Below are positions 5,755-15,087 of a DNA stretch of 64,000 nt, piece after piece. Origin of the DNA: Pseudomonadota bacterium (GTDB taxonomy: Bacteria; Pseudomonadota; Gammaproteobacteria; Xanthomonadales; Ahniellaceae). The position numbers and the translations under genes were made by a program. The stretch spans positions 1-64,000 of the forward strand of contig JALHNO010000024.1 in assembly GCA_022843465.1 (NCBI GenBank), read 5' to 3'. How positions within the stretch are numbered: position 1 is the stretch's first letter; each line of letters begins with the position of its first letter. The notes beneath the pieces were generated by a model, which saw nothing but the letters and a program-made list of their open reading frames with translations, had not been told where the DNA came from and ran no database searches.

Positions 5755-6347
5755 AAGCCAGCGTGATCGAACATGAGTTGCCGGCCTCGGCGCCGCGCAC
5801 CCGCCATCCGATCGTGCGCCGGATCGCCCGCTTCATTCTTCGCCTGGCCGGATGGGATCTGGTCGGCAAGTTTCCCGATGTGCCCAAGGTCCTGCTGGTC
5901 GCGGTCCCGCATTCCTCGGGATGGGATGCGATATGGGGCCTGCTGATCAAGGTCGCCATCGGGCTGGACATCGAGTTCATGGCGAAGAAGGAGATCTTCT
6001 TTTTTCCGCTCGGCCCGATCCTGCGTCTGCTCGGCGGGGTGCCGGTCGATCGCCATGCCGCGCGTGGGGTCGTCGGCGCCACGGTGCAGGCCTTCCAGTC
6101 CAAACCGGTGTGCTGGGTGGTGCTGGCGCCCGAAGGCACCCGCCGCAAGACCGACCGCTGGAAGACCGGCTTCTGGCATATCGCCCGCCAGGCCCAGGTG
6201 CCGGTCTGCGCGATCTGGATCCACTATCCGGACAAGCGCTTCGGCATCGGCCCGATGTTCGAGATGAGCGCCGACATGGACGCCGACATCGCCCGGTTGC
6301 GGGAATATTTCACACCCTTCCAGGGCAAGCACCGCAGCCGCAACTGA
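5751..6347 (+). CDS. Lysophospholipid acyltransferase family protein
   Basis: A 198-aa PlsC-like acyltransferase. The HX4D catalytic motif appears as H54-SSGW-D59. The acyl-acceptor motif appears as EGTRRK near residue 127, followed by KTGFWHIARQAQVPV. A hydrophobic stretch around 60-100 (WGLLIK...FFFPLGPILRLLGG) suggests peripheral membrane association. The family transfers acyl groups to lysophospholipids or related lipids, and the acceptor is not predictable. It overlaps arfB by 4 nt and is probably co-translated. Confidence 0.88.
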   Translation: MKASVIEHELPASAPRTRHPIVRRIARFILRLAGWDLVGKFPDVPKVLLVAVPHSSGWDAIWGLLIKVAIGLDIEFMAKKEIFFFPLGPILRLLGGVPVDRHAARGVVGATVQAFQSKPVCWVVLAPEGTRRKTDRWKTGFWHIARQAQVPVCAIWIHYPDKRFGIGPMFEMSADMDADIARLREYFTPFQGKHRSRN

Positions 6348-6440
6348 GGCGCACGTACTTCCTCAGCTGCTGCGATCCGCACTCCCAAGCCGGCCGGTTT
6401 GCCGCTACGCTCGGGCTTCGCATCCGGAACGTGCAGCGCA

Positions 6441-7229
6441 ATGAAGGGAAGCCTGGTCTGTGTCGGGGTGGGGATGACGCTCGGATCGCACATCACGCCG
6501 CTCAGCCGCAGCTACATCGAGAAAGCCGATGTGGTGTTCGCGCTGATGTCCGACGCCATCGTCGAACTCTGGGTGCAGGAAATGCATCCCGATGTGCGCA
6601 GTCTGCAGCCCTACTACAGCGAGGGCACCTCGCGGCTGACCAGCTACAAGGCGATGATCGAGGCCATGCTGGTCGAGGTTCGCGCCGGCAAGAAAGTCTG
6701 CGGCGCCTTTTACGGCCATCCCGGCGTATTCGCCTGGGTGCCGCACCGCGCCATCGAACTGGCCCGCCAGGAAGGCTACGCCGCGCATATGGAGCCCGGC
6801 GTCTCCGCCGAGGATTGTCTCTACGCCGATCTCGGCATCGACCCCGGCAAATACGGCTGCGCCCACTTTGAGGCCAGCCAGTTCATGTTCTACCAGCGCC
6901 GCATCGACCCCAGCGCCTACCTGATCCTCTGGCAGGTCGGCGTCGCCGGTGACCAGTCCCTCGCCCGCTTCTCCACCGGCGCCGCCTACCGCCAGGTCCT
7001 GGTCGATATCCTCGCCCAGGACTACCCCCTCGACCACGAAGTCATCATCTACCAGGCCGCCACACTGCCGATCCAGAAGGCGAGGATGGAGCGGGTGCGG
7101 TTGGCCGATTTGGTAGCTGCTGATATCGACATGCAGGTGACTTTGGTGGTGCCGCCCTGTCAGGCGCTGCAACCGAACTCGCTCGTGCAGTCTCTTCTTG
7201 CAGGGATAGACGGATTGGAGGCTGTCTGA
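6441..7229 (+). CDS. Split-borosin peptide backbone alpha-N-methyltransferase (SonM-like)
   Basis: A 262-aa SAM-dependent enzyme of the tetrapyrrole methylase fold. It resembles SonM of Shewanella oneidensis, which N-methylates the backbone of its partner peptide SonA, and the fungal fused enzyme OphMA. Visible hallmarks are GSLVCVGVGM (3-12), SRSYIEKADVVF (22-33), the candidate catalytic Tyr/Arg cluster (Y58, Y59, R65, Y69), YGHPGVFAWV (91-100, SAM site), MEPGVSAEDCLYADLGIDP (117-135), FEASQFMFY and PLDHEVIIYQAATLPIQ (196-212). The start at 6441 is chosen because homologues begin at this GSLVCVG strand; the ORF is open back to 6399. A GNAT gene follows by 3 nt and a SonA-like precursor lies 0.9 kb downstream. 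Enzyme family is firm; the product is unknown. Confidence 0.9.
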   Translation: MKGSLVCVGVGMTLGSHITPLSRSYIEKADVVFALMSDAIVELWVQEMHPDVRSLQPYYSEGTSRLTSYKAMIEAMLVEVRAGKKVCGAFYGHPGVFAWVPHRAIELARQEGYAAHMEPGVSAEDCLYADLGIDPGKYGCAHFEASQFMFYQRRIDPSAYLILWQVGVAGDQSLARFSTGAAYRQVLVDILAQDYPLDHEVIIYQAATLPIQKARMERVRLADLVAADIDMQVTLVVPPCQALQPNSLVQSLLAGIDGLEAV

Positions 7230-7232
7230 TCG

Positions 7233-7835
7233 ATGCGTAGTGGACACTTTCTGGCTGGCGAGTTGGCCTGCGAATCGACGGGTATCCTGCTTAGACCCTT
7301 GTCCCTGGAGGACCGCGAACTCTTTGTCGCAATTTATTCCGATGCGAACCTGATGCGCGAGGTCGAGCCCGCGCTGTCGCCAGCGGACGCGAGCACCACC
7401 TTTGATCGAACACTGCGCCTGTGCGAGAAGACCAATCCACGTTCTGCATACATGGTGGCGGTCGCCAAGCGCTCACGCAAGCCAATAGGGATCTGTGCCG
7501 CTTCCCGGATCGACCTGCGTGCTGGCAGCGCAGAGGTAGGCATCATGCTGCTGGCCACCGCGACCGAACGAAGTCTGGGGACGCCGGCTCTCGCGCTGCT
7601 GATGGGTCAACTATTCACGGTACTGGAGCTTGAAGAGATCTGGGCACAGCATGCGCCCACGAATCGGCTCGCGCACATTGTGGGTCTTGGTGCCGGCATG
7701 AAATCCTGCGCACCAAAGGAGTGCTGGGGAGGAAGAGCCGGGATGCACTTCGTTTCGGTGCAACGCGACACCTGGTTTGGCTTGCCGAAGAATCCGATTC
7801 GCCTGCCGATCGCGGAGATTGTCGCGCCGCGCTGA
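7233..7835 (+). CDS. GNAT-family N-acetyltransferase in the borosin locus
   Basis: A 200-aa GNAT protein: ILLRPLSLEDRELF (beta1-alpha1, about 18-31), KPIGICAASRID (beta4), GSAEVGIMLL and ERSLGTPALALLM in place of the pyrophosphate-binding R-x-x-G-x-G/A loop, then LELEEIWAQHAPTNRLAHIVGLGAG. GNATs acetylate amines or protein N-termini. It starts 3 nt after the methyltransferase stop, with GGAGG 11 nt upstream of its ATG, so the two are almost certainly cotranscribed. A tailoring or self-protection role for the borosin is inference from position only. The last ~30 residues look unusual for GNATs. Confidence 0.8.
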   Translation: MRSGHFLAGELACESTGILLRPLSLEDRELFVAIYSDANLMREVEPALSPADASTTFDRTLRLCEKTNPRSAYMVAVAKRSRKPIGICAASRIDLRAGSAEVGIMLLATATERSLGTPALALLMGQLFTVLELEEIWAQHAPTNRLAHIVGLGAGMKSCAPKECWGGRAGMHFVSVQRDTWFGLPKNPIRLPIAEIVAPR

Positions 7836-8145
7836 TGCGTCTGGCCTGTGTTCAGAGGAGGAAACAAGATCAGCCGAATCAGCGAAAAGGGCATGCTTAT
7901 TCATTGCTGTTCAACAGGGAGCAAGCCGCTACACTTTGCGGACGAAGGGTACGCCAGCCGACGAAGTATATGGAGGTTCTGGCGCCTGCGAATCCGCATG
8001 CTGGGGTCGACCAATCGATGTGATGGGCAGTAGACATGGAGGAGGCAATCCAGGAAGGACAGTAGAGTTGATTTTCCACGTCTCGGGACGTCCCGGTTTG
8101 GGGGCGCTTGCGGGACACCGTTACTTCAATCGCAAGGGGGACAAG
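7836..8145 (+). promoter_or_regulatory. Borosin precursor leader region with a 12-bp perfect palindrome
   Basis: About 310 nt without a convincing gene. TACACT at 7930-7935 could be a -10 box but no well-spaced -35 is clear. At 8084-8095 there is a perfect 12-bp palindrome (CGGGACGTCCCG), 50 nt before the precursor start; it could be an operator or an RNA hairpin. AAGGGGG at about 8134-8140, 5 nt before the precursor ATG at 8146, is a good ribosome-binding site. Confidence 0.4.
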
Positions 8146-8463
8146 ATGAGCAATGTCATTCGCATACTGGAAGCGCTGGGCTCGGAAGCGCCTGCCGAAG
8201 CCTGGAATCGAGAGGTCAGCGACCGTCTTCAGGAGACCGCAGCACTGTCGCCGGAAATTGCCGCCGCCTTGATATCCGGCGATCAGGCTAGCCTGGTAGA
8301 GCTGCTGGGTGCCCGCTGCAATGTTTTCTGCGGGGTGTTCCCTGCAAAAAATGACGAGGAAGAAGAAGAGAAGGCGCCAGCGAAAGAGGAAGACGACGAC
8401 TCGAAAGACGACGGCGAAAAAAATTCAGCAGATTCCGTCAGAATCACCGCCCTTGCCTCCTAG
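8146..8463 (+). CDS. SonA-like borosin precursor peptide
   Basis: A 105-aa protein. Residues 1-55 are helical and resemble the borosin-binding domain of SonA: an opening MSNVIRILEALG, then LSPEIAAALISGDQASLVELLG, where SPE..ALISGD..SL parallels the TDE..AVMTGD..KL segment of SonA. The probable core follows (about 56-70: ARCNVFCGVFPAKND, small and hydrophobic residues with two Cys and one Pro). After it comes a strongly acidic tail (71-92, mostly E and D with K) and a short end NSADSVRITALAS. The start is fixed by AAGGGGG just upstream and by the precursor alignment; the ORF stays open upstream to 7777. The methyltransferase is expected to bind residues 1-55 and methylate backbone amides in the core. 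The extent of methylation and any later cleavage are unknown. Confidence 0.82.
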   Translation: MSNVIRILEALGSEAPAEAWNREVSDRLQETAALSPEIAAALISGDQASLVELLGARCNVFCGVFPAKNDEEEEEKAPAKEEDDDSKDDGEKNSADSVRITALAS

Positions 8464-10273
8464 TTCCGGCCAGCGCGCAGCACGAACCGCTCGCCCAGGT
8501 TTCTGGGCGGGCGTTCTGTTGTGTCTGCTCTTCTTTTCTTGCGCGATCGCAGGTGTTGCTGATTCCACACAAGCTGATCGGTTGCTTGCCAAGGCCGAAC
8601 TCCTCAAGCGAACGGATTTCAAAGCGTTTGGCGAGGCGCTTGAACAGATCGAGTTGAAAGTTGCAGGACTGACCCCGGCTCAGCGCGATCATCTGTTTTA
8701 TTTGCGTGCCTGGCAGAAGACTTACGCCGGCGAAATAGAACAGGCCATCGTGGACTTCAAGTCGCTGATATCGAGGCCCATCGACGCGACGCTAAAGGCG
8801 CGCGCCACCGGCACCTTGATCAATGCGCTGACGATCGGGCGCCAGTATGACGACAGCTTTCGATACCTGGCCGAATTGCTCGAGTTGCTGCCAAGCGTCG
8901 ATGATGCAGGAGCACGCTCGCAGGCCCATGCCGTCGCTGCGCTTCTGTTCAATCAAGTGGGACGTTACGACCAAAGTCTGACGCATTCGGCGCAAATGGC
9001 AAAAGAGAACGCGGAGCCTTGGGTCAGTTGCATCGCAAATCAGCTGAGAGTCGAATCCTTGTTCAAGAGCGGTCAGATGACCGCCGTCACCGCGGAGGCA
9101 GAGACCTGGTTACGACGTTGTCTGGATGCGAAGGAATACGTATTTGCCAGCTTTATCCGAAGCTACTTTGCTCGAATCCATCTACAGAATGGCGAGTCCA
9201 AGCGGGCTACCCAGTTGCTGCTCGCCAGCCGGGAAGACGCCGACAGAACCCAGTATCGCGTGGTGATCTCTTCGTTCAACTCCCTGCTGGCAAGGGCCTA
9301 CCTTGCGCAAGGCGAGTTGGCCAACGCAAGGAAGTACGCGCTGGCCGCGATCGACGGTGGGCCCCAGGAGGAATTCATCGAACCGCTGGTGGACGCCTAT
9401 CGCGTGCTCTACGAAGTTTCCGTCAAGCAAGGTGATACCGCTGTTGCATTGGCCTATCACGAGAAATACATGGCCGCCGACAAGGCCTACCTGAACGACG
9501 TCAGCGCCCGCCAGCTCGCCTTCCAGATGGCCCAGCATCAGGCCATTGCCAACAAGCTGCAGATCGAGACCTTGAATCAGCAGAACCAGGTGCTGCAGAT
9601 GCAGGGCCAGCTGGCGGACAAGGCGGCGGAGAATACGCGGCTGTATCTGGCCTTGCTGCTGACGGTATTGGCGTCGATCGCCCTGTGGGCGTACAAGACC
9701 AAGCGTTCGCAGCTGCACTTCATGCGTCAGGCCCAGCATGATGGCCTGACCGGCATCTGCAATCGGGTCTATTTCATGCAGCAGGCCGAGGCCGCGCTGG
9801 AGCATGCCCGACGCAACAATGGGCGCGCCAGCATCCTGATCATCGATCTCGATCATTTCAAGATCATCAACGATGCCCACGGTCATGCCGCCGGCGATAC
9901 CGTGCTGAAGACTTCGGTGACGGCCTGCCGACGCCTGCTCGGCAAGCACGATATCTTCGGCCGGCTCGGTGGTGAGGAGTTCGGCGTCTTCCTGCCGGAT
10001 CGCGATGCCGTGCTGGCGGCCCAGGTCGCGGAGCAATTGCGTGTCGCGATTGCCCAGACCGATACCGGCGATGGCCGCGATGAGTTTCCGATCTCGGCGA
10101 GCTTCGGTGTCAGCAGCAGCGAGATCTCAGGCTTCAAGTTGCAGCAGATGCTGGCCCACGCCGACTCCGCGCTCTACCAGGCCAAACGTCATGGTCGCAA
10201 TCGCGTGGAGATCTACAAGCCGCCACCGGGATCGACAACGGCCACCCCGGCATTTTCGGCAGTCAACAAATAG
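8351..10273 (+). CDS. Membrane-anchored TPR diguanylate cyclase (GGDEF)
   Basis: A 640-aa protein from the ATG at 8351. GTG 8309, ATG 8321 and TTG 8519 are alternatives, and none has a clear ribosome-binding site. Layout: a very basic N-terminus encoded in antiphase to the borosin acidic tail, a signal/TM segment (about 50-70), periplasmic TPR-like repeats (80-400), a short coiled coil, one TM helix (about 430-449), then a GGDEF domain (about 463-625) with IDLDHFKIINDAHGHAAGD and GGEEF (539-543). It should make cyclic di-GMP in the cytoplasm in response to a periplasmic signal. The inhibitory RxxD site is replaced by GKHD, so product inhibition is probably lost. Whether it belongs to the borosin unit is unclear. 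Confidence 0.85.
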   Translation: MTRKKKRRRQRKRKTTTRKTTAKKIQQIPSESPPLPPSSGQRAARTARPGFWAGVLLCLLFFSCAIAGVADSTQADRLLAKAELLKRTDFKAFGEALEQIELKVAGLTPAQRDHLFYLRAWQKTYAGEIEQAIVDFKSLISRPIDATLKARATGTLINALTIGRQYDDSFRYLAELLELLPSVDDAGARSQAHAVAALLFNQVGRYDQSLTHSAQMAKENAEPWVSCIANQLRVESLFKSGQMTAVTAEAETWLRRCLDAKEYVFASFIRSYFARIHLQNGESKRATQLLLASREDADRTQYRVVISSFNSLLARAYLAQGELANARKYALAAIDGGPQEEFIEPLVDAYRVLYEVSVKQGDTAVALAYHEKYMAADKAYLNDVSARQLAFQMAQHQAIANKLQIETLNQQNQVLQMQGQLADKAAENTRLYLALLLTVLASIALWAYKTKRSQLHFMRQAQHDGLTGICNRVYFMQQAEAALEHARRNNGRASILIIDLDHFKIINDAHGHAAGDTVLKTSVTACRRLLGKHDIFGRLGGEEFGVFLPDRDAVLAAQVAEQLRVAIAQTDTGDGRDEFPISASFGVSSSEISGFKLQQMLAHADSALYQAKRHGRNRVEIYKPPPGSTTATPAFSAVNK

Positions 10274-10435
10274 CCGCCGGCGCCGCAACGGCGCCGACGC
10301 ATGACTTCCGTCGCGTAGCGCGCGACCGCGGATGCACCTAGAGTCGCTGCCTCAAGCATCAGGGTGCCGTGCCAAACGTATGCGCCTGGCCCGGCACACT
10401 GATGCAACGGTCCCGACCAATCCTGGGGTATTGCC

Positions 10436-11191
10436 ATGCGCTTTCTCAGAACCTCCTCGGCCTTGCTGCTGCTGGCAGCAACGTCGCTCGCGTCCGCCCA
10501 AACGGTGGACGAACTGATTGCCAAGAACATCGAAACCAAGGGCGGCATGGCCGCGATCAAGGCGATCAATACGCTGAAGCTTGAGGGCAGCATGCGCGTC
10601 GGTGGCGGCGGATTCTCGCTCGACCTCGGCTTCGTGCAGATGACCAAGCGCGGCGGCAAGACGCGCGGCGAGGCGTCTTTGCAGGGCCTGACCGCGGTCA
10701 GTGCCTACGATGGCAAGGATGCCTGGCAGATCCAGCCGTTCCAGGGCCGCAAGGACCCGGAGAAACTCGCGGCCGACCAGGCCAAGGGCCTGGCCCAGCA
10801 GGCCGAGATCGATGGTCCGCTGGTCGACTATCGCGCCAAGGGCCACAAGATCGAATACCTCGGCATGGAAGACGTCGATGGCACGCCGGCGCACAAATTG
10901 CAGGTGCTGCGCGCCGATGGCGACACCCAGTACATCTATCTCGATCCCGATTATTTTCTGGAGATCCGCATCATCACCCGCACCTCGGTGCGTGGCGTCG
11001 AGTTCGAACAGGAGACCGATGTCGGCAACTACGAAAAAGTGGCCGGTGTCTACATTCCGTTCTCGATGGAATCCGGTGCCAAGGGTCAGCCCAAGGGCCA
11101 GAACATCACGGTGACCAAGGCCGAAGCCAATGTCGAAATCGATGACGCCCTGTTCGCCTTTCCGGTGAGCGGGCAGGGAGGCAAGCCATGA
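10436..11191 (+). CDS. Exported LolA-like / outer-membrane lipoprotein-sorting-like protein
   Basis: A 251-aa protein with a signal peptide (MRFLRTSSALLLLAATSLASA, cleavage about residue 21). The mature part starts VDELIAKNIETKGGMAAIKA and continues as alternating beta strands (LKLEGSMRVG, YIYLDPDYFLEIRIITRT, YIPFSMESG). This fold is typical of LolA/LolB-like proteins annotated as lipoprotein-sorting or as unknown. It probably binds a lipid or lipidated ligand in the periplasm; the true ligand is not known. Its stop overlaps the next gene (ATGA at 11188), so the two form an operon and may act together. Confidence 0.7.
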   Translation: MRFLRTSSALLLLAATSLASAQTVDELIAKNIETKGGMAAIKAINTLKLEGSMRVGGGGFSLDLGFVQMTKRGGKTRGEASLQGLTAVSAYDGKDAWQIQPFQGRKDPEKLAADQAKGLAQQAEIDGPLVDYRAKGHKIEYLGMEDVDGTPAHKLQVLRADGDTQYIYLDPDYFLEIRIITRTSVRGVEFEQETDVGNYEKVAGVYIPFSMESGAKGQPKGQNITVTKAEANVEIDDALFAFPVSGQGGKP

Positions 11192-14555: not shown

Positions 14556-15087
14556 GAAGTTCCCTTCTCCCGCTTGCGGGAGAAGGTGGCGCGCAGCGCC
14601 GGATGAGGGAAACGCGCGACACAATCGCATCGTGCCCGAACAACAAGTCCCCTTCTCCCGCTTGCGGGAGAAGGTGGCGCGCAGCGCCGGATGAGGGAGT
14701 CCCGCGACACCATCGCGTCGTGGCCGAACATCAAGTCCCCTTCTCCCGCCTGCGGGAGAAGGTGGCGCACAGCGCCGGATGAGGGAATCGCGCGACACTC
14801 TCGCGTCGTGCCCGAACATCAAGTTCCCTTCTCCCGCCTGCGGGAGAAGGTGGCGCGCAGCGCCGCATGAGGGAAACGCGCGACACAATCGCATCGTGCC
14901 CGAACAACAAGTTCCCTTCTCCCGCCTGCGGGAGAAGGTGGCGCGCAGCGCCGGATGAGGGAATCGCGCGACACAATCGCATCGTGCCCGAACAACAAGT
15001 TCCCTTCTCCCGCCTGCGGGAGAAGGTGGCGCGCAGCGCCGGATGAGGGAAACGCGCGACACAATCGCGTCGTGGCCGAACATCAAT
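14556..15087. repeat. Six tandem copies of an exact 88-bp unit
   Basis: The word TTCTCCCGC starts at 14565, 14653, 14741, 14829, 14917 and 15005, always 88 bp apart. Each unit has the hairpin TTCTCCCGC-n-GCGGGAGAA, then GGTGGCGCGCAGCGCCGGAT, then GAGGGA and a segment CGCGACACNNTCGCNTCGTG. Units differ by scattered substitutions and no indels, and no spacers of variable sequence are present, so this is not a CRISPR array. The antisense reading frames across it are repeat translations. Confidence 0.9.

Follow-up and report, generated by a model that had tools for sequence, protein, structure and literature searches.

A split-borosin locus and its closest described relatives

The closest described relative of the system treated here is SonM-SonA of Shewanella oneidensis, which PMC8429565 presents as a type IV split borosin and in which Y58, R67, Y71 and Y93 of SonM were studied as active-site residues; according to the discussion of that paper no type IV pathway has yet been tied to a final natural product, and the terms "GGDEF" and "diguanylate" do not occur in its main text. 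The locus analyzed here lies in a stretch of 64,000 nucleotides (hereafter the window; positions 1 to 64,000 of the forward strand of contig JALHNO010000024.1, assembly GCA_022843465.1) from a gammaproteobacterium of the family Ahniellaceae, order Xanthomonadales. It comprises genes for a SonM-like methyltransferase, a GNAT acetyltransferase, a SonA-like precursor and a sensor that joins a tetratricopeptide repeat (TPR) domain to a GGDEF diguanylate cyclase domain (Table 1). We propose, with a probability of roughly 0.55, that the methylated peptide is the ligand of its paired TPR receptor and sets the level of cyclic di-GMP (c-di-GMP), the locus being a split-borosin signalling cassette. When set beside SonM-SonA, 130 of 249 aligned enzyme positions are identical, the four active-site residues are the same, the precursor is likewise a separate and adjacent gene product with a homologous leader, and a TPR-GGDEF gene follows SonA too. 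The window locus differs in the long acidic tail and the Cys/Phe-rich candidate core of its precursor, and in its GNAT gene.

Signal and receptor genes are also paired in the Rap-Phr systems of the RRNPP group, and the TPR superhelix of Rap is of similar extent to that of the window sensor. VIA-align superposes the TPR part of the sensor (approximately residues 36-360) on structures of Rap pheromone receptors with peptide (8rsv, 8rst, 4i9c, 8rtc and 4gyo) at Z 23.3-24.2, with root-mean-square deviations of 4.2-4.6 over 305-312 aligned residues and an identity of 6-8%, a likeness of fold that allows peptide binding without proving it. Unlike Rap, the window TPR domain is predicted to be periplasmic and is joined to a cyclase, and its peptide would, by homology, be backbone-methylated. 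The RRNPP group is defined by a cytoplasmic receptor for a re-imported peptide; given its predicted periplasmic location, the sensor is therefore not classed there. A further parallel is the TPR-cyclase pair RcbA-RcbB of Vibrio vulnificus, described in PMC12282931, in which the TPR domain of RcbB represses its own cyclase. RcbB resembles the window sensor, by description and not by sequence, in having its TPR region N-terminal to GGDEF, and differs in that its partner is another TPR protein and not the precursor of a ribosomally synthesized and post-translationally modified peptide (RiPP); the same paper mentions two cyclases of V. parahaemolyticus whose TPR domains are predicted to be periplasmic, and "methyltransferase" does not occur in its main text. 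A literature search found no work joining borosins with a diguanylate cyclase or c-di-GMP, and none on borosins with Shewanella and biofilm or on SO_1480, the main split-borosin papers lying beyond its reach in each case. Type IV split borosins as such are already known (PMC8429565); their pairing with a TPR-cyclase may be new.

Table 1. Features of the split-borosin locus, in window coordinates.
Feature	Position	Strand	Basis and remarks
Split-borosin alpha-N-methyltransferase, SonM-like, 262 aa	6441..7229	+	ATG at 6441, stop at 7229; phmmer against PDB
GNAT acetyltransferase, 200 aa	7233..7835	+	ATG 3 nt past the methyltransferase stop; Pfam PF13302 (Acetyltransf_3), E 2.3e-15
SonA-like precursor, 105 aa	8146..8463	+	Profile match to SonA; alignment A2, 65 sequences
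Precursor leader, borosin-binding-domain-like, four predicted helices	8146..8313	+	AlphaFold; boundary inferred
Candidate core RCNVFCGVFPA, precursor residues 57-67	8314..8346	+	Alignments; boundaries and methylation sites inferred
Precursor C-terminal segment past the acidic tail, SADSVRITALAS, possible second conserved element	8425..8460	+	By eye
Receptor-like diguanylate cyclase: signal peptide, TPR, membrane helix, GGDEF	8453..10273	+	Pfam, AlphaFold, hydropathy
Predicted periplasmic TPR sensor domain, approximately residues 36-328	8558..9436	+	Alignment; structural match
Predicted transmembrane segment LYLALLLTVLASIALWA	9641..9691	+	Hydropathy; within a 100-residue helix of the model
GGDEF domain, intact GGEEF at residues 506-510	9722..10219	+	Pfam; alignment A1; VIA Z 26.4 to 3ign

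The methyltransferase and its precursor

A phmmer search against PDB sequences finds SonM (7ltc) as the best match of the window methyltransferase (E 4e-79), followed by the fused fungal enzymes of the OphMA type (E 2.7e-46 to 6.9e-50); tetrapyrrole methylases are reached at E 0.0076 at best (precorrin-2 methylase), which rules out a tetrapyrrole or cobalamin methylase. The Pfam match is to TP_methylase (E 3.2e-21). Residues Y59, R65, Y69 and Y91 align with Y58, R67, Y71 and Y93 of SonM, and these four columns are invariant in all 36 sequences compared, the window protein included. By homology the enzyme is a split-borosin alpha-N-methyltransferase, and together with the precursor treated below it confirms a split-borosin locus. 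An earlier interpretation made from the window alone (the sequence-only reading) had called the enzyme SonM-like and had proposed a comparison with porphyrin and cobalamin methylases as its check; the protein does not group with these, and its matches place it far more closely with the borosin clade. It is the single borosin methyltransferase found in the window's genome, and it adjoins the sole precursor-like gene found there. A different arrangement is seen in a 545-aa open reading frame (ORF) of another genome (L217:3829-5463), which carries two borosin methyltransferase domains in tandem, with no TPR sensor in the fetched stretch.

The precursor comprises a helical leader, a short hydrophobic stretch containing Cys, a tail rich in Glu and Asp, and a short C-terminal segment. 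Its AlphaFold model (m3807746a13d8) shows four N-terminal helices and no regular structure after them, with a predicted local distance difference test (pLDDT) score of 70-87 in the leader block, and the candidate core aligns near residues L63 and I65 of SonA. A profile of 35 sister precursors, from which the SonA-type member had been excluded, recovered SonA at E 6.8e-7; among 1000 shuffled sequences no match was better than E 0.65. The 36 seed precursors were chosen by eye, and the profile is weak on some other SonA-type precursors (9e-4 for that of L199; 0.036 for that of L202, among 2412 ORFs). Among curated families there was one Pfam match below the cut-off and none in NCBIfam, and a single-sequence search of the PDB gave no match. 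Foldseek with the precursor model placed SonA chains among its best rows at only E 3.3-8, mixed with homeodomains, which is not significant. Since the profile reaches SonA and sister precursors stand in the loci of relatives, a chance ORF is ruled out, and by profile the 105-aa ORF is a SonA homologue; both the assignment and the N-terminal helical domain had been anticipated by the sequence-only reading.

The C-terminal regions of these precursors vary. That of one relative contains a 45-bp tandem repeat (L084:1194-1360) encoding a repeated EEIR-hydrophobic-GGDKD unit, which resembles the C-terminal segment of the window precursor, so that some precursors may carry several C-terminal cores. 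The tails of four others (L129, L132, L135 and L136) abound in both His and Asp, with three to six His in a row, which hints at metal binding.

The TPR-GGDEF sensor as partner of the precursor

The gene that follows the precursor encodes a protein with a strong Pfam match to GGDEF (E 5.7e-40) and an AlphaFold model of mean pLDDT 91.4. Its best candidate start, a TTG at 8453, would lie in another frame and overlap the last codons of the precursor by 11 nt. Topology was read from hydropathy and charge in 118 complete homologues, the window protein included: 117 have a signal-like hydrophobic start, all 118 a membrane segment before GGDEF, and 110 are richer in Lys and Arg after that segment than before it, on account of which the TPR domain is predicted to be periplasmic. 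The GGEEF motif is present in 112. Two cysteines of the predicted periplasmic domain, C193 and C223, are invariant among 51 aligned sensors (alignment A1), a possible disulfide or redox switch.

The association of this sensor with the precursor recurs far beyond the window. Both genes occur in the locus in 34 of 35 relatives (named genomes), the exception, L026, being a contig that ends 70 nt past the match; the locus is therefore more than a chance arrangement. Across 299 genomes of the host's order a methyltransferase match was found in 147 (144 at E < 1e-30), the TPR region in 156, and both in 137, counts that ignore phylogeny. Distances were taken for 125 of the 150 methyltransferase matches listed, the remaining 25 being one family whose sensor matches were not listed. 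Among these 125, 104 are followed on their own strand by a listed sensor at most 3 kb away (median 590 bp), and no listed sensor lies within 6 kb on the other strand; the remaining 21 correspond to 20 loci, in 16 of which a profile finds an adjacent TPR sensor. In the family that had been left out, the methyltransferase, precursor and TPR sensor are adjacent in all 11 loci fetched (L167-L177).

Viewed from the sensor, a precursor lies directly upstream of 102 of 118 distinct sensors of at least 500 residues; a fuller count of 133 of 151 includes 33 shortened sensors, 29 of which come from loci that stop 1.5 kb past the methyltransferase and may repeat other loci. The distance from the precursor stop to the nearest in-frame sensor start, a measure that favours small gaps, has a median of 8 nt, with 97 of 99 pairs within 60 nt and 16 overlapping. 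The 16 sensors of the 118 that lack a precursor are scattered on a quick sensor tree (12 changes), which fits repeated loss. Two further observations concern pairs as units. Among the matches used, 33 sensors have no methyltransferase within 8 kb on their own strand, and 22 of them nevertheless have a precursor directly upstream, one more being the second sensor of a tandem. Beside a single methyltransferase, two precursor-sensor pairs are found in L030 and three in L165, and extra sensor copies with GNAT genes in between occur in L168, L169 and L177. The commonest constant elements are thus the SonA-like precursor and the TPR receptor; the other elements (methyltransferase, GNAT, peptidase and output domain) are not always present or not always in the same place. 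The sequence-only reading had taken the locus to consist of methyltransferase, GNAT and precursor and the GGDEF gene to be a mere neighbour. All three genes are indeed present, and the GGDEF gene has to be added to them: from its best candidate start it overlaps the precursor gene, it is the most constant partner of the precursor, conserved and closely spaced, and it is probably the point of the system.

The same organization is found around SonA itself. A 252-aa SonM fragment is 100% identical in a genome (G369) that we hence take as S. oneidensis; the ORF after SonM is SonA, its L63 and I65 fitting the published numbering, and 3 nt past the SonA stop there starts a 596-codon ORF with TPR and GGDEF profile matches (locus L188). 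Among 97 Shewanella genomes searched 83 have a methyltransferase match, and all 16 long loci fetched contain methyltransferase, precursor and TPR-GGDEF. Nine of these, forming a second clade, contain in addition a GNAT and a pepsin-like A1 peptidase, and in all nine the peptidase gene precedes those for GNAT and methyltransferase and shares their strand; the 7 SonM-type loci have neither peptidase nor GNAT.

In four genomes TPR, GGDEF and methyltransferase form single stop-free ORFs (L212, 846 aa; L213, 863; L219, 881; L226, 849). The four SonM active-site residues and GG(D/E)EF are intact in each, and a precursor match lies just upstream; Pfam confirms GGDEF and TP_methylase in the three that were scanned (L212, L213 and L226). 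An apparent fifth case, L225, was rejected as two overlapping frames. The output domain also varies: in two lineages outside the host's order a TPR hybrid histidine kinase follows the precursor. One of these (L228:7871-11128, 1086 aa) combines TPR, HisKA, HATPase and REC, with Hpt below the cut-off, and its SonA-like precursor was missed by the profile and recognized by eye. The other (L227:7477-10446, 990 aa) is a TPR histidine kinase with a precursor found by the profile, and a TPR-GGDEF gene lies on the other side of the methyltransferase.

More divergent enzymes mark the limits of the association. Ten loci with divergent methyltransferases of the host's order were fetched, and in six of them a TPR-GGDEF is fused or adjacent (L212-L215, L218 and L219); the stretches fetched for L217 and L220 contain none, L216 has no sensor match downstream and its contig ends just upstream, and L221 has a GGDEF match and no TPR match. 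A sample of the class gave a methyltransferase match in only 11 of 369 genomes; nine of the genomes matched lie outside the host's order, and in the eight fetched TPR sensors accompany L227 and L228, none being found in the fetched loci L229-L234, where methyltransferase identity is at most 42%. The link is therefore not universal for borosins. In two of these (L231:4523-5764 and L232:7898-8812) the distant borosin methyltransferase is followed by an ORF that by eye resembles a major facilitator superfamily transporter. As the sampled genomes are related and the co-occurrence counts ignore phylogeny, one might suppose that the genes have simply been inherited side by side, with nothing coupling their functions. 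We regard this as very improbable: the link between sensor and locus persists at 25-44% sensor identity across the host's order, Shewanella and a few other gammaproteobacteria, and common descent of neighbours accounts poorly for the fusions and for the pairs that stand away from the methyltransferase.

The remaining genes are less constant. The GNAT that the sequence-only reading placed directly behind the methyltransferase is borne out by its coordinates and Pfam match; 25 of 35 relatives have a GNAT gene no more than 1.5 kb from the methyltransferase, and in L014 the two share one open frame, so that GNAT is a frequent member of the locus and no obligatory one. Genes for pepsin-like A1 aspartic peptidases (PF00026) lie beside borosin genes in L012 (3867-5366), L191-L198 and L200. 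Of the 299 genomes of the host's order 24 contain PF00026; the methyltransferase is present in 22 of these and the TPR sensor in the remaining two (Fisher p 5e-6, ignoring phylogeny), and none of 14 control genomes contains PF00026. On this co-occurrence the A1 pepsins are candidates for peptide release in those species; a profile search of the window's genome gave no PF00026 match. The described protein nearest to them is shewasin D, a cytoplasmic pepsin homologue of Shewanella denitrificans (PMC4814920), likened here by description and not by sequence: it is of the pepsin-like A1 type, as are the peptidases of the second-clade Shewanella loci, and it has no PF00026 counterpart in the window's genome. 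The main text of PMC4814920 uses neither the word "operon" nor "methyltransferase". In the window, a scan of 6300-10600 returned 1 promoter-like site against 0.9 in shuffles and 6 terminator-like sites against 3.8. Tandem repeats lie elsewhere in it at 14557-15086 (88 bp, 6.0 copies) and 1-303 (121 bp, 2.5 copies).

A peptide-receptor model and its alternatives

From the computed homology, catalytic residues, predicted topology, precursor-receptor pairing, receptor-enzyme fusions and output-domain swaps we infer a course of methylation, acetylation, release, export and binding, and a direction of effect. The SonM-like enzyme would bind the helical leader of the precursor and N-methylate backbone amides of the short core, and GNAT would probably acetylate or acylate the peptide. 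A peptidase would then release it, a pepsin-like one encoded in the operon of some relatives and not found in the window's genome being a candidate for this step. The methylated peptide would reach the periplasm and there bind the receptor paired with it, at the TPR domain; binding would make the GGDEF domain on the cytoplasmic side more or less active and so alter the level of c-di-GMP, which usually governs biofilm formation and motility. We favour a peptide-receptor relationship because of the pairing, the pairs with no methyltransferase nearby, the co-duplication, the linkage, the SonA locus, the fusions and the output swaps, and also because the TPR domain superposes on Rap and the distances among precursors track those among sensors more than those among methyltransferases. 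In 75 triads the partial correlation of precursor with sensor distances given the methyltransferase is 0.51 (0/500 permutations), and that of precursor with methyltransferase distances given the sensor is 0.13 (6/500).

Several observations count against this model. The fold comparison is not specific, unrelated TPR proteins matching the sensor equally in VIA-align (APPBP2, Z 24.5; APC/C, 23.4-23.9). The correlation of the precursor with the GGDEF part given the methyltransferase, 0.47, is nearly as high as that with the sensor. In a test confined to the core (97 pairs, with a crude definition of the core that is wrong for some rows), core and sensor show a partial correlation of 0.03 given GGDEF (30/300 permutations) and 0.01 given leader and GGDEF (102/300), below the 0.08 of core with GGDEF given leader and sensor (0/300). 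The co-variation may thus show no more than that precursor and sensor are inherited together, and does not speak for ligand specificity. Four of the 20 further methyltransferase loci (L124, L125, L134 and L139) have no adjacent sensor, and 10 of the 33 sensors distant from a methyltransferase stand alone, with no precursor seen. Finally, no exporter family was recognized in a clustering of 36 loci, and no signal peptide is seen on the precursor.

The solitary sensors must sense something else, and together with operon linkage, which by itself fits equally, they lend some weight to a scheme in which the TPR domain senses another envelope cue and c-di-GMP switches the production or release of a borosin that acts as a secreted effector or antibiotic. 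We consider this scheme unlikely, though worth keeping in sight. A shared regulator would not need a separate sensor for each precursor, nor tandem copies next to one methyltransferase. That the TPR side is the constant partner is indicated both by the precursor-sensor pairs with no methyltransferase nearby and by the exchange of the output for a histidine kinase with precursor and TPR retained. The missing signal peptide and exporter bear on another scheme, in which the membrane cyclase serves as a platform for assembly: the precursor would remain an unreleased protein that docks at the membrane on the cyclase or methyltransferase, methylation tuning the complex. The fused TPR-GGDEF-methyltransferase proteins, in which enzyme and cyclase both face the cytoplasm, would suit it as well. 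The conserved partner domain is, however, the TPR domain, which is predicted to be periplasmic and which cytoplasmic docking would not need, and we hold such a platform to be distinctly improbable.

The reading of the methylated peptide as ligand of its paired receptor may extend beyond the window. Tentatively, and at somewhat less than even odds, we suggest that split borosins are widespread backbone-N-methylated peptide signals with their own periplasmic TPR receptors, whose output is usually a cyclase and, in certain lineages, a histidine kinase or a cyclase-methyltransferase fusion. The neighbourhood evidence gives these peptides a specific and testable role as ligands of paired TPR receptors controlling c-di-GMP, one that can be tested in S. 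oneidensis MR-1, the source of the crystallized enzyme-precursor complex. It further points to a pathway in which bacterial pepsin homologues may act, and to matched pairs of methylated peptide and receptor that engineering could draw on. If true, the model would mean that Gram-negative bacteria possess a ribosomal, genetically encoded form of peptide signalling that feeds into c-di-GMP.

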